A stretch of DNA of 64,000 bases from Nicotiana tabacum. Its lineage: Eukaryota; Streptophyta; Magnoliopsida; Solanales; Solanaceae. Every line of letters begins with the position of its first letter. Within the stretch, counting starts at the first letter, position 1. Positions 35,545 through 64,000 of the stretch are shown here, piece after piece. Below the pieces are notes generated by a model. The model searched no databases. It saw nothing but the letters and a program-made list of their open reading frames with translations, and was not told where the DNA came from. The position numbers and the translations under genes were made by a program. The stretch lies in assembly GCF_000715075.1 (NCBI RefSeq), contig NC_134082.1, forward strand, positions 194,483,948 through 194,547,947. The letters are read 5' to 3'.

Positions 35545-35547
35545 CCG

Positions 35548-36120: not shown

Positions 36121-36123
36121 GGC

Positions 36124-41989: not shown

Positions 41990-44010
41990 TCAATGCTCCT
42001 GGTGCCCGCGGGACATCATTCGGTCTCGCCGCGGGCCTGTATGCAAGATCCCTTTGAAGTCAGTCCAAGTCACTCATTATCTGCTTAACAAATGTAATCA
42101 CTGCTACGAAGAAGGTAGTGCGAGTCATATCCTCACAGATCTGGCACTTCATAATGACGTAGTCGGCGATGTTTCTAATTCTCTCTCTTATGATGCCTTT
42201 TTCTTATAACAAACGCCCAATCTGCTAGGCCCTGGCTTCTAAAGTTTGGTCGACCACATGATTCTGCTCCTGAAGTTGTTGCAAGTCTATTTCTGATTGC
42301 GCCAAGGCCGTATAACAATGTTCCCTTTCAACCCTGAAGTCTTTTGCCTGTTTGATCATTTTGTTTTCTGTGGCGATGACCCTTTTCTTCAGCCCTGCAA
42401 CCTCATTGTCATACTTTTCTTTCAGTTGCTTAACCAGACGTGCTCGTTCTGCTGAGTTTTCAGCCAATTGATTTTGAGCCCTAGTTAATTCACTTTCTGC
42501 TTTGTTCAGATCAAAATTATATTCGCCCACTTTCCGCTTTAGGTTGTCTATAAGTTTTTCATCTTTGGCACTTCGGGCGGGGTTTTTTGCAGCTATTTTC
42601 ATCTTTTGAATTTAGGCTCGAAGGGCCTCATTTTCTTTAGCTAGTTTCTTTTTATCCCCCTCATCTGCGGTGGCCTGCAGATCTTTCTCAAACTGCAACT
42701 CCATGACTTGCTTCTCCAATATGCCTATTGTGTCCCTGTACTCATGTTCTTTAGCCAACCAATCCCACTGTTCTTGCGACGCCCCGACGAACTCCTGGAG
42801 ATGGGGTCTCTTGGCCGGCCTCCCAAACTCGATTTCTCTCCTATACCAAGCAAGGTATCCCGGCGAAACTTCACCTTTGGACCGATCACGTACACATGTA
42901 TTTGCCGTTAAGTATTGACACTCGCTCCAAATTTGGCGGATTGCTGCTTCGTGAAATTGTCCGTTAGTCCTAATATCGACCACTTGGCCACTAAGATCTT
43001 CATCTTTCGGAACTATTTGGCATCTCCCCAACTGCCTCAAAACTCGATACGGGGCATAGGGCTGGATACTCCTAAGTCCCATCAAAAGGAAATGGGTCCA
43101 GTGGCTGGCATATATATGATTTCATTCATAGGCAGCCATCCAAATGTCCACTCTATTTGGCTTGCAGTGACGAAACAAAGGCGCGCTATCCACTCTGTGA
43201 CCCCTTCTGGCAAGCTGATTCCATCAACCCTCGTAGAAAATTCCTCTATCCATGTTTTCTCTGTCGACCCATAACTCATAAATTGAGGACGATGGCATAG
43301 GTGTTCAATCATCCACATCTACAGCAACACGTTGCACCCCTTAAAAAGGTCTCCCCCGGCTTTGCAGGCTGTGAGAGCGCGAAAGATTTCAGCTACTATC
43401 ATTGGTGCGAGGGTGCTGTTGGCCTGAGTAAACAAAGTGCTGACAACCCCGGCTGCTCGTATGTCAATATTCCCATCTTTTCTAGGAAACACCAAAAGTC
43501 CCAAAAACATCTGTGTTCTTCCTACTTAAGGCAGTTTCCCTTGCTGCAGATTTTGTTTTCCGGCTTGTTGAGCCCCCATATATGACCATATCTATTGTAT
43601 ATAAACTGCAAAGTACAAAAACCAGCTGCCAAGTCTGGGTTGTGGACCTCCCTACTTATTTTCAAAGAGTCTAGGAACCTGTGCACGGCTATGGCCCTCA
43701 GAGCAATTAGGTACTGGTGTCTCAGAGGAACTTTGGGACCCCCAATATATCCAGCTATTTCTTCCAATGTTGGGGTAAGTTCAAAATCTGAGAAATGAAA
43801 TACGTTATGAGTCGGGTCCCAGAATGTGACCAATGCCTTTATGATATCCCCTTTGGGATTAATTTTCAGCAACCCAGCGAGGCCTCCCAAGTATAGATTG
43901 ACCGTGTCTCGCCCTGATTTGCCCAAGTCATCCCACCACATGTGCAACTCCAAAGGGATCTTGTTCATAATTGTTACTGGTAAATTCTGGCTTGTGCTCA
44001 TTCTGCACAT
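41990..44010 (-). pseudogene. Inner element extra ORF1 (DUF7745-like globular part plus coiled coil)
   Basis: This ORF lies between the LTR and gag, a known trait of Ogre elements; its role is unknown. The start (44,010; MSTSQNLPVTIMNKIPLE) opens a globular region with IPLELHMWWDDLGKSG, NLYLGGLAGLLKI, TFWDPTHNVFHFSDFELTPT and EEIAGYIGGP, then APMIVAEIFRALTACKAG and LRSIQPYAPYRVLRQLGRC. I relate it to the plant DUF7745/mobile-domain family from memory. From about 42,780 the protein becomes a long Glu/Lys/Gln-rich coiled coil (KLIDNLKRKVGEYNFDL, KQLKEKYDNEVAGLKKRV). Stops or shifts lie at about 43,520, 43,318, 43,083 and 42,607. It ends near 41,990 with PNDVPRAPGALMYS-like sequence. Confidence 0.82.
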
Positions 44011-44949
44011 TTATTAAGGTGATTAATCATGATTTACTCTATTTTGAATCAAAACAGACCCTTTTTTCAGATTTTTTTTCTAAAACCAAAAGCCCAACTT
44101 TGCAAATACGGCCTTTCAACACTTCCGGAGGGAGATTTTAAGGTTGTGCCTGCTAACTAGCCAAAAATTGGAAAAAGACCAAAGGTGGTTGTTTATGCGA
44201 AATCAGCCTTCCGGCGTCCCTTTCGGGAATATTCGGCTATTTTTGATAAAAACGGCATCAGCTTACCTATTTACAGTAAAATAATTTCTTTTTCGTTTCG
44301 GACCATTTTTGGCAAAAAGAAGTTGGACATTGTTTTTTTTTCAAAACAGGCGATTAACTCTCTTTAACCCTCATACTGCTATTTCTCTTTCCTCAAAATA
44401 TTCAAAAGCCGGTCAGCACGCAAGTCCGAAGCAAATAAATGCACAAGTAGCAAGTAAGATGCATCAGGACGGTCTTTTTCATGTTTGGTACACCTGTCCT
44501 AGACAGACCCAACCCCTGTGTTGAGCCTCCAAAGTCAAATGCACATGATGCACAGAAACGTTCCTATTAGGGATTCGGCATGAAGCTGAGTTATTCTAGG
44601 TTCAAAGCCTGTGTATTTGTTCTAGACTGTGTACCCGAGTGGACAACTCGAGCCGATGAGGGGGCTACGTACCGGGAACCAAAAGGCCATCCGGCTTAGT
44701 AACTTGTCCGAGCCTCTTTCTTATTTCAAGGTATGACACTAACAGAACAGGGAGTCTCGACCAGCGAGAACATCCCCGAAGGTGAGAAGAGAAGGGTTTC
44801 GTAGCAGTTTATATACAGTTTAGATAATATCAAAGCGGTAAAAGCAGCATCTAGCACATTAGGCCCAAACGTGTAAAAATCAGATAATAAACAAAGCCAA
44901 TTATAACAATTATTTCAAGCTTGAATTCTCGAACCCTGAACCAGAAGTT
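44011..44949 (-). other. Inner element leader (5' untranslated region)
   Basis: Non-coding leader between PBS and ORF1, homologous to 49,094-50,222 of the outer element. Relative to that copy it lacks 193 bp including junction hairpin A; the break shares GTCC on both sides. Confidence 0.7.
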
Positions 44950-44978
44950 CTGGGTTCCAGTCCCCAGCAGAGTCGCCA
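44950..44978 (-). promoter_or_regulatory. Inner element primer-binding site (tRNA-Arg type)
   Basis: On the minus strand TGGCGACTCTGCTGGGGAC begins three bases after the LTR. It complements a tRNA 3' end ...GCAGAGTCGCCA, fitting an acceptor stem GACTCTG, most likely tRNA-Arg as reported for Ogre. The T-stem complement is retained but the T-loop part is altered. Confidence 0.8.
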
Positions 44979-44981
44979 GGC

Positions 44982-47475
44982 TGTCACACCTCCTTTTTTC
45001 CTACACCCCGGAAAGGGTATAAGGGAGTTTTTTCCAACTTAAAGTGACAATCGAAATGGGATTCATTTATTATTAAAAATTTAGAGTCGCCACTTGGGAT
45101 AATTTATGGTGTCCCAAGTCACCGGTTCAAATCCCGAATCGAGGAAAAAATTGACTCTATTTTACAGTCCGCGAACACAAAAATTCGGGTAAGAAATTCT
45201 GTTAACCCGGGAGACGGTGTTAGGCATTCCCGGGTTCTGTGGTTCTAGAACGGTCGCTCAACTATTATAATTGGCCTATTATCTGATTTTAATACATGTT
45301 TTAGCCTATGGTTCAATTTTAACTTATTAACCGCTCTTATTCATTTTTAGGAAGATTGCAACGTCATTTAAAATATGTCTTGAACCACGTCACATAAATG
45401 CACCCGCGGTCCACGACACATTTTATTTAACGTTGTTGGGATTTGGATTTGGGTCACATGAAATGCACACCCGAGTTTAGGAAGGTAATTTCAAATTACG
45501 CGCCTAAAGCAACTACGCATTTTTCAACTTTGCGAGGGCCATAGAAAATTCGCTAAATGGCATGCCTCAAATTCTAAAGATTTAAAATTAATTAAATAAG
45601 GGCCATGAGTTTTGATATTTTATTGTGGATGAAGTGGTATAAATTGATAAGTACAAAATGCCTAAAGAAATGGGTTAGCTACATGTATATCACTGGAGCC
45701 TTTTGTTATATCATACTATAATTCAGAAAGGTGGATTTGGCATTTATGTGAAAATAACAAAAGACAGGTGCCAGCTTTGGGTTCATCTCCATATCATCTT
45801 CAAAAATCGACTTTCGTTTTCAAATTCTAGAAAGAAACTAACAAAATTTTATAATAAAATAATGAATCTTAAATGACCATATGAGCACAAAAAAAAAAAG
45901 AAACCATGTTGAGAACTATTCGGATGAACCAGAAGGAACAAAACAAACACGGACATACAAAAATGCATTTTAAACTTGATTATAACAAAGAACACTTAAA
46001 GTAATTAATTTATTTAACACTATGCTAAAGAGAAAGTTGTAGTATCACCACTATAACTTCTATTGTACCATTTTGAAGCAGAGGAAGTTGAATCTTCACA
46101 TGGTTAATTTAAGATAATATGCAGCCAATAACATAAACTGAAGATAAGATCCTTCCACTAACGCAATTTTTTTTTTTTTACATCTTAATGATGACAAATT
46201 GTTCAACTTCACATACTTCTTTAAATTTCAAAATATAAATATGGTGCTACATGAGCTTGAAATCTAAATGTAAACAAAACAATACCTGCTGGTTACAAGT
46301 CATGAGCCAATAAAAATAAAAAAAGTTAAAAAACAAAAACAAAAACAAAAATGAGACAGAGTCATGAACATACTAAAATAACGTTAACATTTGCAAATGA
46401 CAATTCACACAATCAAAGAAACATCATTCATGCGAACAGATTAAATACGAAAGAAACTTTATCAAAAGAACCAAATCAATTTGCTTCTGCTTCAATAAAG
46501 ACGCTCCGATATTTTTTAACTCAAGAGCTTGAATTACATACCTACAAGAGAGTGAATTCAAATGAATAAAATCTGAAAGTTGTAGAGTCAATACAACAGC
46601 AACAACAAAATCTCTATCAACTCTTCTTCAAACCCAAGATTCAAGGCCCGAAATATTGAAAGAAAAATTTAATGAAAATTTTCAACCTAAATTTCTCTCC
46701 TCCCCCTCTCTTCTTTTTTTCTTCTTCTTGTCTTCTCAAATTTTCTTTTCTATTTGTAGCAAAATTTTTGAGATTTTTCAGATTTTTTTAAAAAACATTT
46801 TATTATTTTATTATTTTTTTAATTAAAAAAATTCCACTTACAAATTGTTTTTATTTTTTTTATAAAAAGAAATTCCACATTTTTTTACTTTTATTTTTTA
46901 AATTCCAACTTTAATTACTTTTATCTTATTTAAAATCCCACTTTTTTTACTTTTTAAAAGAGAATTCCACTTATTTAACTTTTCTTAAAAAAACAATCCA
47001 CTTTCTTTTGCTTTTCTTTTAAAAATTCTAATTTATTTTACTTTAAATTTTTTTAATTTTTAGATACCTTTATATTTGTTTATTAATTCCAACTTTCTTT
47101 TACTTTTTATTTTTTTAAAATTTGCACAAAACTTTACTTTTATTTTTTTAATTTTCTACTTTCTTTTACTTTTTAAAAGAGAATTCCACCTACTTTTACT
47201 TTTATTTTTTTATTCAATACTTTCCTTTTTATTTTTTTTAAATCACTCCTGAAAATTAAAAAAAATTAATATTTTTTCGGATTTTTTTTTGATTATTTTA
47301 AAATAAAAATAAAAATAAAATAATATTAATAGTAATAATTCACCTTTTAAATTTTGTATTTTTACCCTATAATAAAAAGTGTAACAAAGCTAAAAATTGT
47401 AGGTTAAAACCCCTAAAATATTTACGTAGATGAAGTGATAAAAAATTAAATATTATCAAAAATTAGGTGCTCACA
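44982..47475 (-). repeat. Inner element 5' LTR
   Basis: 2,494 bp, running on the minus strand from TGTGAGCACCTAATTTTT (47,475) to GGAGGTGTGACA (44,982). It is nearly identical to 28,242-30,701, with small indels such as AATTCGGGTAAG (about 45,183) missing from the other copy. The TATA position (46,750-46,759) reads CTACAAATAG on the minus strand, while the 3' LTR still has CTATAAATAG. Confidence 0.93.
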
Positions 47476-49065: not shown

Positions 49066-49093
49066 TGGCGACTCTGCTGGGAATCGAACCCAG
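49066..49093 (+). promoter_or_regulatory. Outer element primer-binding site, extended tRNA complement
   Basis: TGGCGACTCTGCTGGGAATC begins four bases after the LTR, followed by GAACCCAG. The complement reads CTGGGTTCGATTCCCAG (a full T-arm) then CAGAGTCGCCA (acceptor and CCA). So at least 28 bases match a tRNA 3' half, not only the usual 12-18. The acceptor sequence points to tRNA-Arg. Confidence 0.85.
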
Positions 49094-50222
49094 AATCTCT
49101 GGTTCAGGGTTCAGAATTCGAGCTTAGAATAATTGTTGTATATGGCTTTATTTATTATCTGATTTTGTTACATGTTTGGGCTTGATGTGCTAAGTGTTGC
49201 TTTTACCGCTTTGATATTATCTAAAATGTATATAAACTGCTACGAAACCCTTCTCTTCTCATCTTCGGGGATGTGCTCGCTGGTCGAGACTCCCTATTCT
49301 GTTAGTGTCATACCTTGAAATAAGAAAGAGGCTCGGACAAGTTACTAAGCCGGATGGACTTTTGGTTCCTGGTACGTAGCCCCCTCCTCGGCTCGAGTTG
49401 TCCGCTTGAGTACACAGTCTAGAACAAATACCCAGGTTTTGAACCTAGAATAACTCAGCCTCATGCCAGATCCCTAGTAGGAACGTTTGTTTGCATCATG
49501 TGCATTTGACTTTGGAGACTCAACACAGGGGTTGGGTCTGTCTAGGACAGGTGTACCCGAAATGTAAAGATCATTAGGATGCATCTTACTTGCTACTTGC
49601 ACATTCATTTGCTTCGGATTTGCATGTTGACCGGCTTACAAGGAAAACTTAGATGGTTGAGAGGGATAAGTGCCTGTTTTGAAAAACCAATGTCCTAAAC
49701 ATACCGAAACTCTATTGAAATTTTGAAACAAAGAATTTTTTTTGTAGTTTTCAAAGAAAAGAAAAAAAAGGAAAATATTTGTGTTTTAGAAAGGAAAAAT
49801 AGTTGGTTTTATTTTGACAAATTTGCCCGAACTACGCCAGTTTGATTCTCACAAGGTGTGAGATACGTAGGCAACCCCCATCGGGTCCAACTTCCTTTTT
49901 TGCAAAAATAGCCCGAAGAGAAAACAAAAAAAACAAATAAAAATTTGTTTTTATTATAATGGTTAAGGTAATGCCATTTTTTTCAAAATAGCCGATTGTC
50001 CCCAAAAGGACGCCGGAACGCTGTTTTTGCAAGAACAACCGCCTTCGTTCTCTTTTTCAATTTTTAGCCGGTTGGCAAGCACAACCTTAAAATCTTCCCT
50101 CGAAAGTGCTGAAAGGCCGTATTTACAAAGTCGGGTTTTACTTTTGAAATGAAAATCTGAAAAAAGTGTCAGCTTTGTTTTGGAGTCAATTGAGTCATTA
50201 TTTTGCTTAATCACCCTAATAA
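49094..50222 (+). other. Outer element leader (5' untranslated region)
   Basis: Non-coding. Conserved with the inner leader, including a stretch near 49,250-49,400 (GAGACTCCCTATTCTGTTAG, GTAGCCCCCTCCTCGGCTCG). It contains junction hairpin A. Confidence 0.7.
49829..49873 (+). other. Junction hairpin A (outer element, before ORF1)
   Basis: GAACTACGCCAGTTTGATTC, then CTCAC/GTGAG inner stem, then GATACGTAGGCA. The outer stem is CTACG/CGTAG. A further outer pairing, CCCGA (49,826-49,830) with TCGGG (49,881-49,885), is possible. Confidence 0.85.
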
Positions 50223-52205
50223 ATGTGCAGAATGAGCACGAGTCAGAATTTGCCAATAACAGTCTTAAATAAGATCCCTTTGGAGTTGCATATGTGGTGG
50301 GATGATCTGGGTAAATCGGGACAAGACACAGTCAATCTATACCTGGGAGGCCTCACTGGGTTGTTGAAGATTAATCCTAGGGGAGACATCATAAAGGCGT
50401 TGGTTACATTCTGGGACCCGACCCACAACGTATTTTATTTCTCAGATTTTGAACATACCCCAATATTGGAGGAAATAGCTGGATATATTGGGGGTCCCAA
50501 AGTTCCTCTGAGACACCAGTACCTGATTGCTCCAAGGGCCGTAGCCGTACACAAGTTCTTAGACTCTTTGAAAATAAGCAGGGGGGTCTACAACCCAGAT
50601 TTGACAGCTGGTGTTTGTACTTTGCAGTTTATATACAACAGATATGGTCATATCGGGGGGTTCAACAAGCCGAAAAACAAAATCTGCAGCAAAGGAAACC
50701 GCCTTAAGTGGGAAGAACACATGTGTTTTGCATTTATGGTGGTCTTTTTGGGACTTTTGCTGTTTCCTAGAAAAGATGGGAACATTGACATACGAGTAGC
50801 CGGGGTTGTCAGAACTTTGCTCACTCAGGCTAATAGCACCCTCGCACCCATGATAGTAGCTGAAATCTTCCGCGCTCTCACAGCCTGCAAAGCCGGATGA
50901 GACTTTTTCGAGGGGTGCAACATGTTGTTGCAAATGTGGATGATCAAACACTTACACCATCGTCGTCAATTTATGAGTTATGGGCCGACAGAGAAAACAT
51001 GTATAGAGGAATTTTATACAAAGGTTGATGGGATCAGCCTGTCAGAAGGGGTTACAGAGTGGATTGCATGCCTCCGTTCCATCACTGCAAACCAAATAGA
51101 GTGGACGTGTGGATGACTGCCTGTGGATGAGATCATGTACATGCCAGCCACTAGGCCTTATTTAATCCTGATGGGACTCAGGAGTATCCAACCTTATGCC
51201 CCATATCAGGTTTTGAGGCAGCTGGGAAGATGCCAGATAGTTCCGAGAGATGAAGATCTTAGTGCCCAAGTAGTCGAGATCGGACTTAACGGTCAGTTTC
51301 ATGAAGCAGCAGTCTGCCAAATTTGGAGCGAATGTCAATACTTAATAGCCAATACCTGTGTACATGATTGATCCAAAGGTAAGGTTTCACTAGGGTACCT
51401 TGCTTGGTACAAGAACAATGGGCTTGGTTGGATAAGGAGAATGAGTACATGGCCACAATAGGAAGGTTGGAAAAACAAGTTAAAGAACTTCAATTTGAGA
51501 ATAGCTTGCAAGCAGCGGCAGACGAAGGTGAAAAGAAAAAGCTAGCCAAAGAAAATGAGGTCCTTTGAGCCCAAATTCAAAAAATGAAAATAGAGGCAGA
51601 GAACCCCACCCGAAGTGCCAAAGATGAAAAACTCATAAATAACCTGAGGCAGAAAGTGAGTGACTATAGTTTTGACTTGAACAAAACAGAAATTGAACTA
51701 GCCAAAGTTCGAAAGCAATTGGAAAAACGCGGATGAACGAGCACGCTTGGTTAAGCAGTTGAAAGAAAAGTACGACAATGAGGTCGCGGGATTAAAGAAA
51801 AGGGTTATCGCCACGGAAGACAAAATGATCAAACAGGCTAAAGACTTCAAGGTTGAAAGAGAGCATTGTTATATAGCATTGGCACAATTAGAAATAGATT
51901 TGCAATAACTTCAGGATCAGAATCAAGTGGCCGAGCAAACTTTGAAGGCCAGGGCCCAGCAGATCGGGCGTTTGTTACAAGAAAAAGGTGTCATAAGAGA
52001 GAGAATTAGAAACATCGCCGATTACATTGTTATGAAGTGCCAAATCTGTGAGGATATGACTCACACCACCTTCTTCGCGGTAGTTATGACATTTGTTAAG
52101 CAGATAATGAGTGACTTGGATCGACTTCAAAGGGATCTTGCATATAGGCCCGCGACGAGACCGAATGATGTCCCGCAGGCACCAGGAGCATTGATGTATT
52201 CATGA
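50223..52205 (+). pseudogene. Outer element extra ORF1 (DUF7745-like plus coiled coil)
   Basis: Same protein type as 41,990-44,010 and about as long (roughly 660 codons). It starts at 50,223 (or 50,232; MSTSQNLPITVLNKIPLE). The first 225 codons are open and cover the globular part (ELHMWWDDLGKSGQDTVNLY, YFSDFEHTPILEEIAGYIGG, MCFAFMVVFLGLLLFPRKDG). A TGA ends that segment at 50,898-50,900; further stops lie at 51,114 and 51,369, and a deletion near 51,405 removes sequence present in the inner copy. The rest is coiled coil (51,420-51,960) and a C-terminal tail ending PNDVPQAPGALMYS (52,202). The conserved tail suggests it was a real protein before decay. Function unknown. Confidence 0.82.
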
Positions 52206-52943
52206 TTTTTCATTTGAGTCTGTATTTCCTTTTCCGTTAAAGTCTGTCAGTTGTTTTGAGTCTGTATTTTCTTTCTGCTGGGGTTTGTCAGTTGTTGTTG
52301 AGTCTGTATTTTCTTTTGTTGGAGTATGATAGTTTTGGAGTCTGTATTTCGTCTTTTCATCAGAGTCCATTAGTTTCTTTTGAAGTCTGTTAGTTTTGAG
52401 TCTTTGTAATCAAAGCATTTGCTTTTTATGGAAATTAAAAATCCTAAAAATGTTTTATTTCACACTTATCTTCTAGAACTACGCTCGGTCTGATTCATGT
52501 AGGGTCATGATACATAGGCAATCTCCATAGGATTTGACCATAGCCAAAAGAAAAAAAAAGAAGAGAAGAAGAAGAAAAACGAAAAGAGAGAGGAAAAACA
52601 AGAGAGAAAAGAAAAGAAAAGAGAGAAAAAAATAAGAAAACTAAGAACGAAGAAATGGAAAAACCAGAGGGAAATGGGAGGATGAAAACAAAGAAAAGAA
52701 AAAGATAAAAAGGGAGGAAGTTGCAAATAGAAAAGCCGGGATGACGCAAGCAGCCGGTCAAATGCATAATAGAAATGGTTAACTGCTTAGGTGCATTCAT
52801 TCCCCAAATGTGCGGTTACCAATTTGTTAAAGCCCTAATCACTAACAGGGTTGTTGTTGATATATTGAGTCCAGGCAAGTGGTTAGTTGATTGTCATTCT
52901 GGCAACTCACTCATACAACACCTGATCAAAAGACAAGCTGAAC
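52206..52943 (+). other. Outer element ORF1-gag spacer
   Basis: Non-coding spacer. 52,206-52,420 contains repeats of GAGTCTGTATTTTCTTT and GTCTGTTAGTT words. 52,545-52,700 is almost pure purine (GAGAAGAAGAAAAACGAAAA type). Minus-strand Phe/Ser-rich frames here are composition artefacts. Hairpin B lies between them. Confidence 0.6.
52476..52520 (+). other. Junction hairpin B (outer element, between ORF1 and gag)
   Basis: GAACTACGCTCGGTCTGATT leads to CATGATACATAGGCA. The inner stem is TCATG/CATGA. The outer stem is CTACG/CATAG with one mismatch. Confidence 0.85.
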
Positions 52944-54464
52944 ATGGCCAACCAAGAATTGGAGGCAAGTATTGTTGACCCGTCAAAAGAGGTGGAAGAA
53001 TTGGATGTTAATGCGATGAAGGAAGAGATGTATAAGTTAAAGCAGCAAATGGCTGAAATGTACCAAGCCTGGGCAAAGGGGAATCTACCACCGGTTTATC
53101 CTACCAACCCTACTTATATCCCACCAGCGGCCCAACCTCAGGAGCCTCCCACCGTGAACTCATCTCCCACCTTTCCCCTCTACCAACAATGCCATGGCAC
53201 CACTTCCCATACATTACAAGCTCCTCCACCCAGACATGTCCCGCACCCTCCTCCACCAATCACACCTGTTTTTGTGGCACCTCCACCTGCCGCATTACAC
53301 CGATCTTCTAGTGAACCTCTGTTCCAAACTCACGACAACCAGTATTATCCCTCTGAACCCACCTTCAAAGTTCCGGAACCATATTCTTACACCCCTCATT
53401 TTGATCTCCCGGCAGAGACCGAGAAGCCACCCAAAAATCCCGAGCATGAAGAGATGATCAGAAAGGTTAAAAGCTTAGAACAATCGTTCAGAGATATAAG
53501 GGGGTTGGTGGGTCAAGTAAGTGTGGCCTATAAAGATTTATGCCTGTTCCCAGATGTTCAGTTACCAGCATGGTTCAAGATGCCTAAGTTTGATCTGTAC
53601 GACGGGCATGACGACCCAGTAGCACATTTAAGAAGATTTTGTATCAAGATGACAAGAGCAGGCCGAAGAGATGAATTGCTGATGGCATATTTCAGCCAAA
53701 GTTTGAGTGGATCGGCATTAGGATGGTATACCAAACAAGATCACAACAGGTGGTACACATGGGACGATTTGGCCCAAGCCTTCTCCTGCCATTTTCAGTA
53801 CATTCTTGAAATTATCCCAGATCGTCTGTCATTAAGAAAGATTGAGAAGATGCCCAGTGAGAGTTTCAGGGAATATGGATTCCGGTGGAGAGAGCAAGCA
53901 GCGAGGATTAACCCTCCGATGAAAGAAAGTGAGATGGTTGATTATTTCTTGCAGGCTTTGGAACCCACTTATTTTGGTCACTTAGTATCAGCAGTGGGCA
54001 AGTCCTTTAATGAGGTTGTAAAAATGGGAGGCATGGTTTAGGAGGGACTCAAGTCCAATAAGATCACGAGTTATTTAGCAATCAAAACGACCACCCAGGC
54101 CATTCAAAATGGTACTGGAGGTGTATTCGGGAAGAAGAAGAAAGAGGATGTTGCGATAATTGAGTCGGAAGCTTGGGTCGGATCTTGGAACCCTCTATGT
54201 TACTACATCCCGCCTCGACCCTATCCCCAAACTTACCCCCACACTCCATATAGCCCACCAAAACACTACTACCCACCGCCAGATCCCCATTTTTCCGTCC
54301 ATCATGCACAAACCTATACCCAACCTCCCGTTCACGCACATTGGCGTGTGCCAGCTCCATGAAGTCCATACCCAGCTCCACAAAATACCTATCCACCCCC
54401 AAAAGCCTATAAAAATCCCCCTGGAATAGGTTTTCGGCCAAATCAAGCCTTTAAGAATGAGAGG
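52944..54464 (+). pseudogene. Outer element gag
   Basis: Positions 52,944-54,041 form one open frame of 365 codons: N-terminal coiled coil (MKEEMYKLKQQMAEMYQAW), Pro-rich linker (PPPPITPVFVAPPPAALHRS), and the gag domain (LLMAYFSQSLSGSALGWY, SFREYGFRWREQAARI, DYFLQALEPTYFGHLVSA). A TAG at 54,039-54,041 replaces a codon that is Glu in the inner copy. Reading continues in frame to about 54,300 (GGVFGKKKKEDVAIIESEA) and then shifts frame through the Pro/Tyr-rich tail. It corresponds to the inner gag at 40,168-41,390, and the N-terminal frameshift of that copy is absent here. Confidence 0.9.
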
Positions 54465-56483
54465 TTGCAGAAGCAGAAGACTTTCACTCCATTGGGAGAA
54501 TCATATACTAGTCTATTCCATAGATTGAGACAGTTGGGTATGTTGAATCCGATCGAGGCCAAACTGCCAAATCCCCCTCCTAGAAATCTTGACCGCTCGG
54601 TGAGTTGTGAGTATTATTCAGGGGTCCCGGATCATGACATAGAGAAATGCTGGAAATTGAAAACAGCTATTCAAGAGCTCATTGATACTAATCGGATTGA
54701 GGTCCAAGCCCCGGAAGCACCTAATATCAACCAAAACCCGTTGCCGGCCCATCATGAGACAAATATGATTGAGATAGTGCATAAGGGAGGGGAGCCTAAG
54801 AAACCTTCGCAAACCGTCATGATGATTCGCGCTAGTAAAGCCAAGCCATTTAAAAAGTCAACAAGTGAGAAGTCTGTGATCAAGTTGAACAGGTCAAATA
54901 ATGAACCATCTGTGGAGGTCAAGAAGGGGTACTCAAGTGACATTGCAGGAAAACATGAAAGAGCAAAAGTGGTTGTGCCAGGAGTGACGAACAAACATGT
55001 GGTAATTGTGAAGGGCGCCCGCACAGATCCTGTCATTATCAAACTGGTAACTCAATTACCGATAGTCAGCAGCAAGGCAGTCCCATGGAATTATGAACAA
55101 GTGACATTGACTTACAAGGGAAAAGAGGTTAAAGAAGAAGTGTGTGAGACCCATGGTTTGACTCGATCAGTGAGATGCTTTGCCCCCGAAGAGTTGAGAA
55201 AAGCTAAGATCTCCAAAGATAACCCAGTGTTGGTGAAGAAAGTTGTGACCGAGGAAAAAGCAGAGAAATTTCTGAGAAAGATGAAAGTGCAGGACTATTC
55301 CATTGTAGAGCAGTTAAGGAATACACCGGCTCAGATCTCGCTATTGTCATTATTGATCCATTTAGACGAGCACCGTCGGCTTTGATGAAGATCTTGAACA
55401 AAGCCCACGTTCCTGACAAAATCTCAGTAAACCACTTGGAAAAGATAGCTAACAAGATATTTGAGGTAAACAGAGTCACTTTTTCTGATGATGAGTTGCC
55501 CGTGGAGGGTACTAAGCATAATAGAGCCGTCTATATGATGGTGAAATGTGAATATTCCGTGGTTATTCGGGTACTGGTTGACAATGGTTCCAGTGCAAAT
55601 ATTTGACCTCTTTCCACTCTGAACAAGTTAAAGGTGGATGATTAAAGGATTCACAAGAACAATATATGCGTTTGGGGTTTCGACGGTGGAGGGAAAGATT
55701 CAGTCGGGGACATAGTGCTCGAGCTTACATTAGGGCCAGTTGAATTTACTATGGAATTCCAGGTGCTCGATGTGGCTGTTTCTTACAATCTGCTATTAGG
55801 TCGACCCTGGATTCATGCTGCCAAAGCGGTCCCGTCCACTCTGCATCAAATGGTTAAGATTGAATGGGGAAATTGTTGTGCTTGGTGAAGATAATTTGTG
55901 TGTTCCTAGTGATGCCATTGTTCCGTTCATAGAGTTTGAAGACGACAAGGGGCCATGGGTTTGTTAGGTTTTTGACACGGTATCGGTAGAGAAAATTTCT
56001 GAAGGGAAATGCGTGTCGACTCCAAAGGTAGCTGCTGCATCAGTCATGGTAGCCGTTGAAATATTGAGAAATGGTTTTGTACCGGGCAAGGGTTTGGGTG
56101 CATCTCTGCAAGGTATCATACAATCGGTTTCTCTTCCTAAAAACTTGGATACATTTGGTCTGGGGTTCTAGCCCACTGTCGCAGACGTGAGAAGATCTAG
56201 AAAAATGAAACTGAGAGCATGGGCCCTTCCAAAGCCAGTCCCGCATCTTTCCAGATCATTTGTCAGGCTTGGTACTAGAAAGAACCCAATGACGACGGTT
56301 CCCAGTTCGGTGGTTGATATGGATAGAGATTTGATGGAAACGTTCGAGAGGATATTTGACGAAGTGAACACGGTGGAAGCTGGAGAGGGTTCTAGCAAGG
56401 CAAATGTGCAATTTGTTGGGCCCAGTGCAAAGATTAACAATTGGGAAGCTACTCCTCTCCCCACTAGGAAGGAGTTTTGTTAG
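54465..56483 (+). pseudogene. Outer element gag C-terminus and protease
   Basis: Homologous to 37,866-39,832. 54,465-55,385 is open for 306 codons. The zinc knuckle reads CEYYSGVPDHDIEKC: the second Cys, present in the inner copy, has become Tyr. A frameshift at about 55,380 leads into the protease (55,382-55,606), where VLVDNGSSANI is followed by TGA in place of the next Cys codon. The C-terminal half (MEFQVLDVAVSYNLLLGRPW, about 55,750-55,815) and a final piece (56,187-56,483) are readable across stops. No working protease can result. Confidence 0.85.
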
Positions 56484-56659
56484 TTTGCTTTGATTTTCTT
56501 TCAGTTTATCTAGATTATTCCAGGGTTGTAATTCAGATTCTATGTTCCCTCTGTTTGGATGTATAAACCTTGTTGTCTTTAATTTCAATGAAATGCAATT
56601 TTCCTTTTTTCTCCCTTTCTGATAGTTTTATTTTTGTTCTTCTTTTCTTCCTTGTACAG
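56484..56659 (+). other. Probable Ogre-type intron, 3' part (outer element)
   Basis: A pyrimidine tract (TTGTTCTTCTTTTCTTCC) ends TTGTACAG at 56,659, followed by coding sequence TTCTTTTTATGCTGG. It is identical in layout to the inner element (acceptor at 37,706-37,707). The donor was not identified. Confidence 0.6.
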
Positions 56660-58225
56660 TTCTTTTTATGCTGGTTTCAATGATATGACATGCATGAGGA
56701 ATCTCCGGCCCAGTCTCAAAAGCCAATCTAATTCTGAAATAGTAATTCAAGAAATAGAGTGTGAGGATGAATCAGAATATGACGAGGATGAAGACTTTGA
56801 AGAGATTAGTAAAGAATTAAGCCATTTTGAAGAAAAACCCAAGCCTAACATGAGTGATACAGAAGCAATCAATTTAGGGGACCAAGATAATGTCCGGGAA
56901 ACTAAAATAAGTGTCCATCTTGAACTACAACTCAGAGAGGAGATAATTAAAGCACTGTTCGAGTATAAAGATGTTTTTGTATGGTCTTATGACGATATGC
57001 CAGGTCTAAGCACTAACTTGGTGGTTCACAAATTGCCCACTGACCCGGCATTTCCCCATGTAAAGCAGAAGCTGAGGAAGTTTAAAACTAATATGAGTGT
57101 GAAGATTAAGGAAGAGGTCACCAAACAGTTTAAGGCCAAGGTCATTCGGGTCACCCGGTATCCCACCTGGTTAGCCAATGTTGTGCCTGTACCGAAGAAG
57201 GATGGCAAGACCAAGGTGTGTGTTGATTATCGAGATCTCAACAAGGCAAGTCCCAAGGATAACTTCCCACTGTCGAACATCCATATATTGATCGATAATT
57301 GTTCCAAACATGAGATTGGTTCTTTTGTGGATTGTTATGCGGGTTACCACCAGATCTTAATGGATGAGGAAGACGCAGAAAAGACAGCATTCATCACGCC
57401 ATATGGAACGTACTGTTATTAGGTCATGCCATTTGGTTTGAAAAATGCCGGGGCAACCTACATGAGGGCAATGACGACCATATTCCATGACATGATACAC
57501 AAGGAGATCGAGGTTTATGTGGATGATGTAATTGTCAAGTCTAGAAAGCAATCTGACCATGTAAAAGATCTAAGAAAGTTCTTACAAAGGCTTCGCAGGT
57601 ACAATCTCAAGCTCAATCCTGCAAAATGCGCGTTTGATGTTCCATCTAGAAAGTTGTTGGGATTCGTAGTCAGCCGTTGAGGTATTGAATTAGACCCGTC
57701 AAAGATATCCATGAGTTGTCACCTCCAAAGAACAAGACCGAGGTGATGAGTCTGTTGGGGAGATTGAATTACATCAGCCGGTTTATTGCTCAGCTCATGA
57801 CAACTTGTGAGCCCATCTTCAAACTGTTAAAGAAAGATGTCGCGGTTAAGTGGAAAAATGAATTTCAGGAAGCATTTGATAAGATAAAGGGGTACTTGTC
57901 AAACCCACCTGTGTTGGTCCCGCCAGAATAAGGGAGACCTTTGATTCTGTATTTGACGGTCTTGGACAATTCATTTAGATGTGTGTTGGGACAGCGTGAC
58001 ATTACCGGCAGGAAGGAGCAGGCCATATATTATCTCAGTAAGAAATTCACATCTTACGAGGTTAAGTACACTCATCTTGAGAGGACGTGTTGCGCCCTAA
58101 CTTGGGTAGCCCAGAAGCTGAAACATTATTTGTCATCTTATACTACTTACCTCATCTCTCGCTTGGATCCGTTGAAGTATATCTTCCAGAAGCCTATGAC
58201 CACGGGAAGGCTCGCAAAGTGGTAG
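56660..58225 (+). pseudogene. Outer element reverse transcriptase and first RNase H
   Basis: 56,660-57,422: acidic leader, then RT (PVPKKDGKTKVCVDYRDLNK, SFVDCYAGYHQILMDEEDAE). A TAG at 57,420-57,422 replaces Arg before VMPFGLKNAGATYMRAM. 57,426-57,680: catalytic YVDD in EVYVDDVIVKSRKQ and the thumb (LKLNPAKCAFDVPSRKLLGF). After a stop and a small deletion at about 57,680-57,715, the connection (NYISRFIAQLMTTCEPIFKL) is complete here, unlike in the inner copy. 57,941-58,225 is the first RNase H (QAIYYLSKKFTSYEVKYTHL, SSYTTYLISRLDPLKYIF). Stops at about 57,929 and 58,223. Confidence 0.9.
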
Positions 58226-58389
58226 ATTTTCCTCATAGAATTTGACATTGTCTACTTGACTAGGACTGCAATGAAAGCCCAGGCATTGGCTGATCATTTG
58301 GCTGAGAACCCAGTAGGTGAAGAATATAAGCCTTTGAAAACTTATTTCCCTGATGAAGAGGTAATGGACATTGATGAGTTGGAATAGGT

Positions 58390-58960
58390 CGAAAAGCCAA
58401 GATGGAAACTTTTCTTTGATGGGGCTACTAATATGAAAGGAGTTGGGATAGGAGCGGTACTTATTTCTGAAACAGGGCATCACTACCCTGTTATGGCTCA
58501 ACTTTGGTTCTACTGTACTAACAACATGGCTGAGTACGAGGCATGCATTTTGGGTTTGAGGATGGATGTGGATATGGGTGTCCAGAAAGTCTTGGTCTTG
58601 GGTGATTCGGGCCTTCTGGTGCACCATATTCAGGGAAAGTGGGAAACACGGGATTGAAAACTCATACCGTATCGACAATGTTTACATAATCTTTGTTAGC
58701 GATTCCAATCAATAGAGTTCAGGCATATTCCGAGGATTTATAATGAGGTCGCTGATGCCTTGGCTACCCTGGCATCAATGTTACATCATCCGGATAAGGC
58801 TTATGTCGACCCGTTGCATATTCAAATCCATGACCAGTATGCTTATTGTAATGTGGTGGAAGAAGAACTTGACGGTGAGCCTTGGTTTCATGATATCAAG
58901 GAATATATTAGGATAGAGGTGTATCCAGTACAAGCCACATGCGATCAAAAGAGAACAACT
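58390..58960 (+). pseudogene. Outer element second, archaeal-type RNase H (aRH)
   Basis: It follows the first RNase H, as in the inner copy. Acids visible in order: WKLFFDGATNMKG, NNMAEYEACILGL, VLGDSGLLVHHIQG, and NEVADALATLASM. Stops at about 58,656 and 58,697. A linker (YIRIEVYPVQATCDQKRTT) leads to integrase. Confidence 0.86.
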
Positions 58961-60128
58961 AGGCGATTGGCAAGCGGTTTTTTCTTCAGCAGAGGGGTTT
59001 TGTACAAAAGGACTCCAGATCTTAGATTGCTGAGATGCATAAATGCTAGGCATGCCACAACTATTATGACTAAAGTACATTCTGGAGTCTGTGGACCGCA
59101 CATGAGCGGGTATGTGCTGGCAAAGAAGATTCTCCGAGAAGGTTATTATTGGCTCACTATAGAGCGAGATTGTATCAGTTTCGTGCGTAAATGTCATTAG
59201 TGCCAAGTGCATGGAGATTTGATTCATTCTCCACCATCTGAATTACACACGATGTCTGCACCATGGCCTTTTGTTGCGTGGGGCATGAATGTCATTGGGC
59301 TAATTGAGCCATCAACATCGAATGGGCACAGGTTTATTCTGGTGGCCATAGATTATTTCACCAAATGTTTTGAGGCTAAAACATTCAAGTTTGTAACCAA
59401 GAAGGCGGTGGTTGATTTTGTGCACTCAAATATCATTTGCCAGTTTGGGATACCGAAGGTAATCATCACAGATAATGGTGCTAATATCAATAGTCATCTG
59501 ATGAAAGAGGTGTGTCAACAGTTTAAGATTATACATCGCAATTCCACCCCATACCGCCCAAGGTGAATGGAGTAGTCGAGGCAACCAACAAGAACATAAA
59601 AGAGATACTTCGAAAAATGGTGGAAGGTTCTAGGCAGTGGCATGAAAAGCTGCCGTTTGTATTGCTGGGTTATCGCACTACTGTTCGTACTCAGTAGGGG
59701 TGATTCCTTATTTGTTGGTATATGGCACCGAAGTAGTGATACCTGCAGAAGTGGAAATTCCATCCCTTTGAATTGTCGCGGAGGTTGAGATCGATGATGA
59801 TGAGTGGGTCAAAACCCGCTTGGAACAATTAAGATTGATCGACGAGAAAAGATTGGCAGCAGTGTGTCATGACCAGTTGTATCAACAGAGAATGAAAAGA
59901 GCATACAATAAGAAGGTGCGTCCACAGAAGTTTGAAGTGGGTCAGTTAGTATTGAAACGCGTTCTTCAACATCAGGTTGAAGCAAAAGGCAAGTTTGCCC
60001 CAAACTGGCAGGGGCTGTTCGTTGTAACCAAGGTGTTGTCCAATGATGCATTGTACTTGACAGATGTAGAAGGCAAATGTGTAGAAATGGCTATCAACTC
60101 TGATGCAGTCAAGAGATACTATGTATGA
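58961..60128 (+). pseudogene. Outer element integrase
   Basis: Zinc-binding HHCC: VHSGVCGPHMSGYVLAKKIL and FVRKCH, where a TAG (59,198-59,200) stands before CQVHGD. The first catalytic position is changed: WGMNVIG has Asn where the inner copy has Asp. The second Asp is present (IITDNGANINSHLM). The Glu position lies after a frameshift at about 59,563 (VNGVVEATNKN). The C-terminal part 59,820-60,128 is open (RAYNKKVRPQKFEVGQLVL, GKFAPNWQGLFVVTKVLSN) and ends at the original stop. Inactive by several lesions. Confidence 0.88.
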
Positions 60129-60249
60129 TTTTCTTTGTTTGATTGTACTTGTTTTTAATTGGCATGTTTTGAATACTGAAATGAAGAAGGCATTTTGTTC
60201 TGCTATCTAAACACTTCATCCCTTGTCACCCCCTTTGAGCCTTATTTAT

Positions 60250-60480
60250 TTTCTTTCATACCCCTCTTTCGGAATCAGTAACAAATATCAGAAGCACAAA
60301 CGTAAAAGATAAGTAAAGGAAGGAGAGAAAAATAGAAAGGGAAGAATGAAAAGAGAAAGAAAAGAATGAAAAAAGAAATAAAAGAATAAAAAGAAAAAAG
60401 AAGAAGAAAAACAAAAAAAGAGAAAAAGAAAGCAAAAGAGAAAGCAAAGAAAGAGAAAAAGAAAAATCGCAACAACAGAG
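60250..60480 (+). repeat. Purine-rich simple sequence (GAAA/AAAG)n
   Basis: Between about 60,295 and 60,470 the plus strand is nearly all A and G, with blocks such as GAAAAAGAAAGCAAAAGAG. The inner element has only a short equivalent (34,180-34,235). The Phe/Leu/Ser-rich minus-strand frames are artefacts. Confidence 0.85.
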
Positions 60481-60495
60481 CAATTCCTATGTCAT

Positions 60496-60536
60496 GAACT
60501 ACGTGCGACCTGATTCCTTTTAAGGATACGTAGGCA
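60496..60536 (+). other. Junction hairpin C (outer element, after pol)
   Basis: GAACTACGTGCGACCTGATT leads to GGATACGTAGGCA. The outer stem is CTACGT/ACGTAG and the inner stem TCCTT/AAGGA, both perfect. Confidence 0.88.
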
Positions 60537-60821
60537 GCCTCACGGTTCGGTCCCATCAAAGTAAAAATCCAAAAATCCCCAAACAAGATACTAGGGCAGA
60601 AGTTGTGGTTGTTATCAAAAATCTGATTCCGAAAGTTGTAGTTTTGAACCCATTCGAATTGTCTGAGCTTTTTATACCCTTTCTTTCTAAACCCACCCAA
60701 AAGCCACATTACGGTCCAAAGAAAGACCTTCCGATCAGTCTTCGAGAAATGCCAAGTCAAGCAGGTAGAGGTGATTCATATCAGGGGCAACACAATGGTC
60801 CAAATAGGAAAAAGAAATAAA

Positions 60822-61075
60822 AAATGAGAGAGCCTTATTGGTGAAAACCCTCGCGGGCACCGTAAGGTGACGAGATCTGAGAGAAATAAAAATGAGAGAG
60901 TCTTATTGGTGAAAACCCTCACGGGCACCATAAGGTGACAGGAGGTGAGAGAAATAAAAAAATGAGAGAGTCTTATTGGTGAAAACCCTCACGGTCACCG
61001 TAAGGCGAAAGTGAGTTGAGAGATAAACGAATGAGAGAGGTCTGCTGGTGAAAACCTTTCAAGGCACCGCAAGAT
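60822..61075 (+). repeat. Outer element tail array 3, about 70-bp unit, four copies
   Basis: Each unit has ATGAGAGAGTCTTATTGGTG, AAAACCCTCACGGGCACC and GTAAGGTGAC. The last unit is diverged. It matches 33,655-33,835 in reverse. Confidence 0.9.
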
Positions 61076-61814
61076 GAACAAGATCAGGATTTGGGTGAAG
61101 AAATCAGGTTATGGAAATTCCGGAGCAACAAAGTATGGCAACCGAAAATTGATTGGTTGGACAGATTGGGCCGATTAATCCAAATTGCATGTCATGATCA
61201 TTGGCGCCAGTTGTTCCACTCAGATAAGTCTCTTTTCTTTTGTCTCTTCAGATAGTCTTCCAATTTTAGATTTCCTTATCCTTAACTCTGAAGGTCATTG
61301 CATTTCATTTCTTTTGGGTTTATTTCTCTAAGATGTTCCTAATGTCAGTTCTGTTTAAGCAAATAAGAAGGAATTTCAAAGCTCACTACCAGCTTCAAGA
61401 TTGCAAAGCACAGTGCGGCCAAAGCACACCAAAGATAGCATGATGTAAAGTGGGACAAAGCACCAACAAGAGTTTCATCGGCAAAATGATTTGGTAATTT
61501 CATGGGAGATGCAGAGGTTCCGTTAAAGGGGTCAGAGGTGTGAAACAACGGTTCAGGTATAGAACACTCAGGTCATTCAGGGTCATAGGGTTTTGAAAGT
61601 CAGTCGGAAAGTCAAGCGGTTCAGGGCCAGTTCGGGGAAACCAGTCAAAACAAAACAATGCAGCGGAGAGACCTTCAACAAAGAATGCCATCAACTAACC
61701 ACCGCATTTTAAATTGACGAATTTTTCTTTGATTAAACAGGGGCAGGAAATTTTGGTTGTTTCGGAGAAACCTTCCGTGGAGAAAGGCGGTCACCAAACA
61801 GGTTTGATTTTTGA
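61076..61814 (+). other. Outer element tail, unique part
   Basis: Non-coding 3' region between arrays. I see no gene, only short artefactual frames. Confidence 0.45.
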
Positions 61815-62240
61815 TTTTTTAGGACCCTCCTGGAAAATGGGACGTAGCGTAAAGTTTAGAAATATCATAATCTAGCTGAAATGTATCCCAAAGGAATATA
61901 AGCAGGTTTAGAATTTTGCATGTTCGAGATAAGATTCAATTAGGAGTTTCCAGGACCCTCATGAATAATGGGACTTAACTTTAAGATTTCGATTAGATAA
62001 CAACATTTAGCGTAAATTTTGTTGTAGGATAGTATAATTCAGCCATAAAAGTTGTCACTCTTAAGATAAAATTAGACCTTTGAGTTTCAGGACCCTCCTG
62101 GATAATGTGGAGTAGTTTAAAGACCCTCTTAGATAACAAGATTTAGCAAAAGTCGCACCTTTAGAAGATATAACTTAGATTTAAAACTGTCGTTTAGGTA
62201 AGAATTGTCAGGACCCCCTAGATAATGGGACCTAGCTTTC
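61815..62240 (+). repeat. Outer element tail array 2, four copies, about 125-140 bp
   Basis: CAGGACCCTCCTGGATAATG and variants at about 61,821, 61,950, 62,088 and 62,209, with spacers carrying TTTAGA, AGATAACA(A)GATTTAGC and TTCTTTAAGA-like words. Homologous to 32,280-32,960. Confidence 0.9.
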
Positions 62241-62249
62241 AAATTCTTA

Positions 62250-63320
62250 GTAATACTTGGTAATATGATTCGTTTTACACTTACATATGTTCCCAGATAC
62301 CCAAACTGGGGCAGAAAAATTTCTTCTGTTTTTGTCATTTTGTTGAAGTCAGGAGCCCGCCTGAAGAGTAGGGAATACATTCAAGTCAGTAGTCAAGAGC
62401 CCGCCTGGAGATCAGGGAATACATTTCAAGTTAGTAGTCAGGAGCCCGATTGGAGAGCAGGGAATACATTTCAAGTTAGCAGTCAGGAGCCCGCCTGGAG
62501 AGCAAGGAATACATTTCAAGTTAGCAGTCAGGAGCCCTCCTGGAGAGCAGGGAATACATTTCAAGTCTAGCAGTCAGGAGCCCGCCTGGAAAGTAGGGAA
62601 TACATTTCAAGTCAGCAATTAGGAGCCCACCTGGAGAACAAGGGAGTATAACTCAAGTTTTAGTTTTCAAGTTCTTATTAATATTTGGTAATGCAGTTCG
62701 TTCTACACTTACATATATGCCCAAATACTCAAACTGGGACCGAAAATTTCCTTTGTTTTTGTCTATTTTGTTGATGTTAGGAGCCCGCCTGGAGAGCAGC
62801 GAATACATTCAAGTTCAGCATTCAGGAGCCCGCCTGGAGAACAAGGGAGTACAATTCAAATTTTAGTTTTCAAGTTCTTATTGATATTTGGTAATGTGAT
62901 TCGTTTTACACTTACATATGTTCCTAGATACCCAAACTGGGGCAGAAAAATTTCCTCTATTTTTGTCATTTTGAAGTCATGAGCCCGCCTGAAGAGTAGG
63001 TAATACATTCAAGTTAGAAGTCAGGAGCCCGCCTGGAGAGCAGGGAATACATTTCAAGTTAGCAGTTAGGAGCCCGTCTGGAGAGCAGGGAATACATTTC
63101 AAGTTAGCAGTCAGGAGCCCGCCTGGAGAGCAGGGAATACATTTCAAGTTAGCAGTCAGGAACCCGTCTGGAGAGCAGGGAATACATTTCAAGTTAGCAG
63201 TCAGGAGCCCGCCTGGAGAGCAGGGAATACATTTCAAATCTAGCAGTCAGGAGCCCGCCTGGAGAGCAGGGAATACATTCAAGTTCAGCAGTCAGGCATC
63301 CACCTGGAGAAAAGGAAAAA
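62250..63320 (+). repeat. Outer element tail array 1, 45-bp units in higher-order blocks
   Basis: The unit is CAGTCAGGAGCCCGCCTGGA then GAGCAGGGAATACATTTCAAGTTAG-like sequence, about 45 bp, in more than 15 copies. Three blocks are separated by an approximately 95-bp spacer (TTCTTATTGATATTTGGTAA, CTTACATATGTTCC, CCCAAACTGGGGCAGAAA) at about 62,245, 62,675 and 62,875, making a higher-order repeat. The inner element has the spacer once. The 15-codon peptide repeats are artefacts. Confidence 0.93.
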
Positions 63321-63560
63321 CATCTCAGATTACAATTCAAGGCGGCAACAAAGGGATTCTGCCGGGAGAATACAAGGCAACAAGAACCACATGAGCAAGT
63401 TTGAAGATATAAATAGGATTTTGTAATGCATAGATCATAGTCTAGTCTATCTTCTTTTTATTTTATCATGGTGTAATAAGGGGATACAGTAAGCAGTAGC
63501 AGCAACAACAACAATAGTGAAATCACAGTTTTGTGGCAGTCCCAGCTACCAAAACTTCCC

Positions 63561-63604
63561 GAACTACATTGACCTGATTCCTTTATAGCCGAGGGTATGT
63601 AGGA
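63561..63604 (+). other. Junction hairpin D (outer element, before 3' LTR)
   Basis: GAACTACATTGACCTGATTC leads to GGGTATGTAGGA. The outer stem is CTACAT/ATGTAG, with both arms changed relative to copies A and C. The inner stem is CCT/AGG, weaker. Confidence 0.78.
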
Positions 63605-63724
63605 AACCTCGGAAGCAGGGTGCGGTAAAATCTTTCAAAAATATTTCCCACGGTGTATTCAAGCGGGCAAAAATCGCTCGTATCCGCTCACTTTATCTTT
63701 GCACGAAAACTCTTCGTGTTTCCG

Positions 63725-63740: not shown

Positions 63741-64000
63741 TGTGAGCACGTGATTTTTGTCCTATATTAATTACTCCCATAAATTCAAAACAAAATAATT
63801 TATTTTCATTATTTGCAATTTTTGTGAATTTTGTGGCATTTTCTGATAATTGTTTGCATTTGTTTGTGCATTTTCATTTTTGTTTAATTAATGAAAATAC
63901 AAAATATCACGCATTGCATTTAGGGTTTAATTTTACATTGTTTAGATTAATTAGTAAATTAGTTTGTTTTATAAAATATGAAAATCACAAAAAAAAGTAG
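63741..64000 (+). repeat. Outer element 3' LTR, first 260 bp
   Basis: TGTGAGCACGTGATTTTTGT and onward matches 25,819-26,080 with few differences (for example CTTTTTGCCC against ATTTTTGTCC). The LTR continues beyond the window. Confidence 0.93.

Follow-up and report, generated by a model that had tools for sequence, protein, structure and literature searches.

A predicted pseudoknot repeated in non-coding regions of Ogre-type retrotransposons of tobacco

What purpose could be served by a short structured sequence that a long terminal repeat (LTR) retrotransposon carries several times over? The question is raised by a 64,000-nt stretch of Nicotiana tabacum DNA (assembly GCF_000715075.1, contig NC_134082.1, positions 194,483,948 to 194,547,947), here called the window, which holds an outer and an inner Ogre-type element. 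A sequence-only reading of the window had reported seven copies of a 41-46-nt covarying hairpin, named A, B, C, and D in the outer element and b', c', and d' in the inner element, and had placed it at every module junction. We find that this motif is the 5' part of a predicted 57-69-nt pseudoknot, which is present in great numbers in the genome and is kept in derivatives in which no gag or pol genes were detected. The pseudoknot probably has a cis-acting RNA function.

Results

The predicted fold

All seven copies are present in the window at the positions and on the strands first proposed, and the view that they represent a conserved, covarying RNA element stands. However, the predicted fold is a pseudoknot and not a plain hairpin. 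It consists of four helices in the layout 5' GAA - P1 - P4a - UGAU - P2 hairpin - UA - P1' - GCA - P3 hairpin - YC - P4b 3'. The motif had been taken to end at GGCA, which covers P1 (CTACG/CGTAG) and the hairpin P2, but a second hairpin, P3, and the pseudoknot strand lie just downstream. P3 begins directly after GGCA (arms in copies elsewhere in the genome are, for example, ACCC/GGGT, AACC/GGTT, and ATCC/GGAT) and is followed by a dinucleotide, which is TC in 44, CC in 26, TT in 8, and something else in 6 of 84 copies. The four to six bases after this dinucleotide, P4b, are complementary to the bases right before TGATTC. The latter had been described as variable; in the predicted fold they are not free, since they make up the other strand of helix P4.

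In the outer element, on the plus strand, copy A (49829-49892) lies between the primer-binding site (PBS) and ORF1, the first open reading frame (ORF). Its P1/P2 part spans 49829-49873 and P3 spans 49874-49886, and P4b, AACT at 49889-49892, is partnered by AGTT ahead of TGATTC. Copy B (52476-52539) lies between ORF1 and gag, with the P1/P2 part ending at 52520, P3 at 52521-52533, and P4b (GACC, 52536-52539) facing GGTC. Copy C (60496-60552) follows integrase; here the P1/P2 part ends at 60536, P3 occupies 60537-60546, and the P4 strands are exchanged, with GGTC at 60549-60552 opposite GACC. Copy D (63561-63627) lies upstream of the 3' LTR and has CTACA/TGTAG as P1, P3 at 63606-63621, and GGTA at 63624-63627 as P4b, which forms three of four pairs with GACC. 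The inner element carries its copies on the minus strand: b' (41686-41749) between ORF1 and gag, with P3 at 41692-41704 and P4b (GACC) at 41686-41689; c' (34101-34157) after integrase, with a weak 3-bp P3 at 34107-34116 and P4b (GGTC) at 34101-34104; and d' (30828-30896) upstream of the 3' LTR, with a 3-bp P3 at 30836-30850 and a 6-bp P4, GCAACC/GGTTGC (P4b at 30828-30833).

The sequence-only reading had proposed a covariance model of the seven copies. Such a model, built from these and one outside copy (L001, see below), recovered all seven at 53.0-63.5 bits; the only further match in the window at E <= 1 scored 16.5 bits and fell in AT-rich DNA. Covariation of the inner stem was borne out, with 95% of P1 and P2 cells paired in the eight copies as compared to 26-51% when the partner was moved by one to three columns. 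The change to CTACA/TGTAG on both arms is confirmed for D and d'; as a single class-level change involving two CpG sites, however, it says little by itself. Copy B of the window, which has CTACG/CATAG and hence one C-A mismatch in P1, had gone unmentioned. P1 generally varies little, the innermost pair being GC in 73, AU in 7, GU in 4, and AC in 2 of 86 copies. These 86 genomic copies were collected with a regular expression having near-consensus ends, so the conservation of GAACTACG and GATACGTAGGCA among them is in part a product of this selection; decayed copies seen by the model alone (e.g., L016:4633, L018:4595, and L017:8432) fall outside the set.

The evidence for P4 comes from 84 of the 86 copies, as no P3 was found in L006:1497 and L035:2941. 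P3 was located without reference to P4, its start being fixed after GGC(A); because P3 was found by its pairing, counts of P3 pairs are biased. P4 is Watson-Crick paired at all four positions in 49 of the 84 copies, whereas 5000 permutations of the 5' strand gave a mean of 11.9 and a maximum of 24, and sliding the helix by one to three bases in either direction left 0-1 fully paired copies. The paired haplotypes are diverse (GACC/GGTC in 13 copies, GGTC/GACC in 13, GATC/GATC in 8, GGTT/AACC in 6, GACT/AGTC in 4, AACC/GGTT in 3, and AGTT/AACT and CCTT/AAGG in 1 each). With permutation confined to position classes, the 49 observed copies compare with a mean of 25.8 and a maximum of 38. Collapsing the data to 34 distinct haplotypes gave 89 pairs, a number that was never reached in 20,000 permutations (mean 66.1). 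An unanchored search found 60 of 86 copies with Watson-Crick P4 (mean 19.8, maximum 33), but did not separate from permuted data when G-U pairs were permitted (74 versus a mean of 66.1 and a maximum of 75). When P3 was placed in a variable register, 19 of 82 copies were paired (permuted mean 4.8, maximum 14), as compared to 32 when P4 was taken one base off.

The other helices vary in step as well. For pairs 3-5 of P2, 59 of 75 positions in 25 distinct arm pairs are paired (permuted mean 43.3, maximum 56). In an alignment of class B alone (24 of 31 copies, 23 distinct), 97.3% of cells are paired versus 20-36% in slid controls; one P4 pair appears as AU in 11 copies, GC in 10, and GU in 2, and one P3 pair as UA in 16 and CG in 7. 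A YYU/AGG pairing suggested by single-sequence folds and RNAalifold was dropped, as those pyrimidines are part of P4a. Judged from these sequence comparisons, the predicted pseudoknot is almost certainly real.

Abundance and position in the genome

To the 3.996-Gb genome of the window (700 contigs) we applied short patterns together with their reversed controls. TACGN6CTGATTC matched 36,479 times versus 1,219 for the control, TACGN5CTGATTC 6,650 times versus 701, and a D-class pattern 22,021 times versus 0, so that all counts lie far above those of the controls. Many of the genomic copies carry scattered changes, several of them at CpG.

On the sense strand of the element there are up to four usual places for the pseudoknot, all non-coding: after the PBS, before gag, after integrase, and before the 3' LTR. 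As proposed, the position classes A to D are common to both window elements and to further elements of the genome. Two of the latter, each taken from an adjacent pair of fetched regions (L016 with L017, and L021 with L032), have A, B, C, and D as well as matches to ORF1, gag, pro, reverse transcriptase (RT), and integrase (INT), and all other model matches in them are below 10 bits. Placement at every module junction was too strong a claim. Copies do occur at several junctions, but the inner element has no copy A, and no model copy stands at the pro/RT junction in any of the six elements where it is visible (both window elements, L011, L017, L021, and L025). The text available of PMC6317226 describes an intron at this junction in Ogre of pea and Medicago (this and the other papers cited by PubMed Central (PMC) number are represented by parts of their text). 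In viral contigs, we found neither a copy of the motif nor a relative of two pol pieces.

Retention in derivatives without detectable genes

Copies were found in 17 of 20 ten-kb regions fetched from the genome (L002, L004, and L005 were left out as they are contained in L010-L012); none was found in the remaining three, L023, L024, and L027, nor in L045. When pieces of the window were compared to the 20 loci by tblastn (E <= 1e-4), six of them (L010, L012, L015, L019, L020, and L028) had matches to gag and pro and none to ORF1 or to RT and RNase H (RH), and all six have kept A, B, and C. A more extreme case is provided by L033, L034, and L035, which were picked for a short distance between B and C. 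They have no tblastn match at E <= 1e-3 to the gag, pro, RT, RH, or INT pieces of the window, yet A, B, and C are present in all three and D follows in two. The 30 B-C pairs, drawn from the first 100 of the 36,479 listed places (48 tagged B and 52 tagged C), were spaced by 7.6-7.8 kb in 14 cases, less than 4 kb in 15, and 5.7 kb in one.

Since the structure is kept where these genes go undetected, it would act in cis and not for the expression of a neighboring ORF, and we consider a cis-acting RNA function of the pseudoknot probable. Such retention in loci without gag, pol, or ORF1 matches also speaks against the fold serving as an internal initiation site or controlling translation of a downstream ORF. 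A role that depends on the ORF boundary as such, which the sequence-only reading had considered, finds no support, given that gene-poor loci retain A, B, and C; the boundaries look rather like available non-coding space.

It should be noted that the 5' leader of some derivatives has two A-type copies (at 4185 and 5002 in L012, and at 4260 and 3739 in L028). Those of L034, at 1439 and 1668, are only 229 nt apart.

A copy beside a hAT transposase

Among genome contigs of 84,980 prokaryote species (one genome each), a single exact match to a long pattern was found, L001. This contig comes from a roe deer gut metagenome and belongs to a metagenome-assembled genome labelled Bacilli. One side of it is bacterial and the other carries a hAT transposase frame (PF05699, E 1.1e-21; PF14372, E 8.6e-10). 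We infer that the contig is chimeric and carries plant food DNA. The motif lies on the minus strand at L001:7852-7900, ∼52 nt 3' of the stop codon of the hAT frame (L053 1602-2999, minus strand). In this copy, L001/L053, P1 and P2 are joined by a P3 that is long and AATT-rich in its arms and by GGCCTT/AAGGCC as P4, and the helices differ from those of the Ogre copies seen. The hAT context suggests that Gag may not be the sole reader of the fold and speaks against a purely Gag-based role.

Database and literature searches

Rfam was searched at E <= 5 with window positions 28000-64000, L053, L012, and L032, and no match at the copies reached the gathering score or was otherwise relevant. A SurA match in L012, which overlaps copy A1 with 15.8 of the 100 bits needed (E 2.4), was taken as chance. 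No match to xrRNA_D or coremin, two plant-virus RNA classes, appeared either, with the coverage of both by Rfam being uncertain. Among the papers listed from open-licence PMC literature on RNA structure, hairpins, or pseudoknots in Ogre or Tat, none was seen to describe the motif, though a description may exist elsewhere, and the available portions of PMC6317226, PMC11963269, and PMC12786077 name no such motif. Of the motif strings, only GAACTACG and CTACGTATCC occur among the literature matches listed, and these are mostly generic. We regard the fold class as new, while cis-acting RNA elements in retroelements are a kind already known.

Discussion

A candidate signal for export or stability

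Our current, tentative preference, to which we grant somewhat less than an even chance, is that the pseudoknot is a cis-acting RNA element for export or stability, by analogy to known retroelements. Its retention in the absence of coding capacity suggests that the element transcript would need it in cis. The fold might be read by a protein, for which a host factor is the most likely candidate, and this step is the less sure of the two. Such a reader would promote export of the long unspliced RNA, its stability, or both, as is done for retroviruses and mouse LTR elements by the constitutive transport element (CTE) of Mason-Pfizer monkey virus, the RNA transport element (RTE) of intracisternal A particles, and the musD transport element (MTE), and the effects of several copies on one long RNA would add up. 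All three are likewise short structured cis RNAs on the unspliced RNA of an element. The MTE includes a pseudoknot along with kissing loops, according to the accessible text of PMC12786077 (for the CTE, see PMC3856414). Here, by contrast, the hosts are plant Ogre elements with usually about four copies, and no sequence relation is known. A second parallel is offered by the direct repeats of Rous sarcoma virus (RSV), which are repeated cis RNAs on either side of the accessory gene src, an arrangement similar to that of A and B around ORF1. RSV strains without src retain at least one repeat, as given in part of PMC3856414, and loci without ORF1 matches similarly keep A and B. The RSV repeats are different in being 115 nt long and present as two copies around src, and we do not suggest common descent.

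Taken to its full extent, the proposal is that of a new structured-RNA class, found in LTR retrotransposons of plants and also in at least one hAT element, which would serve as a portable signal for the handling of transposon RNA, read by a host factor and kept in most of the non-coding stretches of giant elements and in the gene-less parasites of these. We put this forward as a possibility of which we are doubtful. If true, a very abundant structured RNA of a plant genome, whose copies number in the tens of thousands when counted with exact patterns, would be without an Rfam family; plant LTR retrotransposons would gain a cis signal, be it for export, stability, or packaging, that can be put to the test; and the mobilization of derivatives lacking gag and pol would become easier to explain. 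Sharing of the fold with a DNA transposon would suggest that the host supplies a reader of transposon RNA, and because the base pairs are defined, compensatory mutations offer a simple test.

Several observations weigh against the export or stability reading. The result for P4 is weaker when only full 4/4 haplotypes are counted (8 observed, reached in 47 of 20,000 permutations) and uneven among position classes: of 2000 permutations, none reached the observed number of fully paired copies for C, two did so for B, 12 for A, and 33 for D; in class A3, no copy of seven has a fully paired P4. In class B, neither double-sided changes of a pair nor further pair types are in excess of shuffled data (the observed number is reached in 72 and in all 500 of 500 shuffles, respectively). 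All of the permutation tests disregard the relatedness of the copies. The inner element is without copy A, and 124 nt in it correspond to 311 nt of the outer element (between 49637 and 49949). The link to hAT is a single contig, and the motif was present in none of 12 hAT 3' ends fetched from the genome of the window (91 matches scored). Lastly, export and packaging predict nearly the same for gene-less LTR derivatives.

Alternative explanations

This last point makes packaging the main rival, and the present comparative sequence data do not separate it from export or stability. As a dispersed packaging or dimerization signal, the pseudoknots would be bound by the nucleocapsid of the element's Gag, and non-autonomous relatives would be packaged in trans. 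We think this possible, if on the unlikely side. It agrees with the copies kept both in derivatives with gag and pro only and in those without gag or pol matches, and with the copy between PBS and first ORF, which is the usual place of a psi region; places as far 3' as those of C and D are not usual for one. In addition, one hAT transposase, an enzyme that works without Gag, has the fold on its 3' side, and no packaging role could be demonstrated for the pseudoknot of Ty1, going by part of PMC4974528. Alternatively, the fold could stall exoribonucleases, blocking XRN enzymes or scanning ribosomes and shielding the stretches downstream. Exoribonuclease-resistant RNAs (xrRNAs) of plant viruses, such as xrRNA_D and coremin, are also small folds in intergenic and 3' regions. 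The pseudoknot of xrRNA_D is compact and backed by covariation in the excerpt of PMC6299227, and coremin ends in AAACUAC (PMC10520033, in part) where the present motif starts with GAACUAC. This likeness of 6-7 nt could be chance, however. No coremin-like hairpin was noticed ahead of the motif, Rfam gives no match, and the layouts differ as far as the text descriptions in the available parts of PMC6299227 and PMC10520033 go: two helices and a pseudoknot for xrRNA_D, and two hairpins and a spacer for coremin. We find an xrRNA-like role improbable.

A role in translation or splicing, with the fold as an internal entry site or as a structured 3' splice site for subgenomic mRNAs (CTGAT as branch and TAG as end), would suit the copies ahead of ORF1 and gag. 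It is very unlikely given that the regions following C and D yielded no conserved ORF and that A, B, and C are kept in derivatives without gag or pol matches. Barely credible is a self-cleaving ribozyme like that of hepatitis delta virus (HDV), even though the P1/P4 pseudoknot, with its two enclosed hairpins, may in part resemble the nested double pseudoknot of HDV. The helices follow the HDV order, namely P1, P2 (P4 here), P3 (P2 here), P1', P4 (P3 here), P2'. At the equivalent of the first J4/2 base, 52 of 84 copies have U, 28 have C, and 4 have G, so a catalytic cytosine is not conserved; the junction is 2 nt long, and the L3 equivalent is not conserved. No HDV-type match was obtained in the Rfam search, which presumably included such models, and cleavage at some four sites in each genome RNA would presumably be harmful. 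In HDV-like ribozymes, the first J4/2 base is a C, and its change to U inactivates them (PMC10879173, available text). Those of R2 and L1Tc (PMC4035085, likewise in part) share the helix order and pseudoknot topology with the present fold, but differ in the catalytic cytosine, the length of J4/2, and L3, and the present copies are several and internal to an LTR element. Finally, the copies could have no present function and be old duplicated sequence inherited by descent, or they could be a protein site at the DNA level. The scattered changes, several at CpG, would agree with this, as would the neglect of relatedness in the permutation tests, a D motif no more conserved between the window elements than its upstream flank (0.74 versus 0.77), and a C downstream flank that is equally conserved (0.84). 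Yet the motif exceeds its upstream flank at B and C (0.87 and 0.86 versus 0.68 and 0.56), compensatory changes in P2, P3, and P4 are seen between classes and families, and the fold occurs in a second type of transposon, which makes either of these readings highly improbable.

Host elements in the window

The outer element (25819-64000, plus strand) runs off the end of the window. Its 5' LTR ends at ∼49059, followed by the PBS, and the start of this LTR (25819-26077) is 96.9% identical over 260 bp to 63741-64000. The inner element (28244-47475, minus strand) appears to have been inserted in the 5' LTR of the outer element and has LTRs at 28244-30701 and 44984-47475 that are 94.0% identical. The outer element must be older in spite of its higher LTR identity, for which a small sample or uneven rates could account. 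Inner positions 44282-44405 align with outer positions 49638-49948, and the 187 nt of leader missing from the inner element include copy A.

An ORF1 fragment (50223-50897, plus strand) lies between copies A and B, and a gag frame (Retrotrans_gag, 52926-54038, plus strand) lies downstream of copy B. The region upstream of gag (50223-50900) matches DUF7745 above the cut-off (E 1.4e-11) and the plant mobile domain below it (E 9.7e-7, 28.7 bits, cut-off 34.9). Both elements contain gag, RT, and part of an ORF1 with DUF7745, and the inner element has an extra RNase H by Pfam (RVT_3, 35548-36078) between RT and the zinc-binding domain of integrase. The reading frames are separated in the window elements, yet both copies are broken. 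In the available sections of PMC6317226, Ogre is described as having an extra ORF with a plant mobile domain in 57% of elements and an aRH domain between RH and INT. Because both features are found here, along with long 3' tandem repeats in both elements, the window elements fit the Ogre lineage (Ty3/gypsy, Tat) as defined there. The tandem arrays lie between copies C and D, at 31133-32110 in the inner element (∼47-48 bp) and at 62233-63356 in the outer element (45-bp spacing), and are ∼75-83% alike.

At the PBS (TGGCGACTCTGCTGGG; 49066-49112 and 44940-44978), the bases that follow resemble a tRNA T-arm on the opposite strand, and they gave a weak match to mascRNA in the Rfam search (E 3.1). 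The pairing of the element with its primer tRNA may thus extend past the tRNA 3' end.

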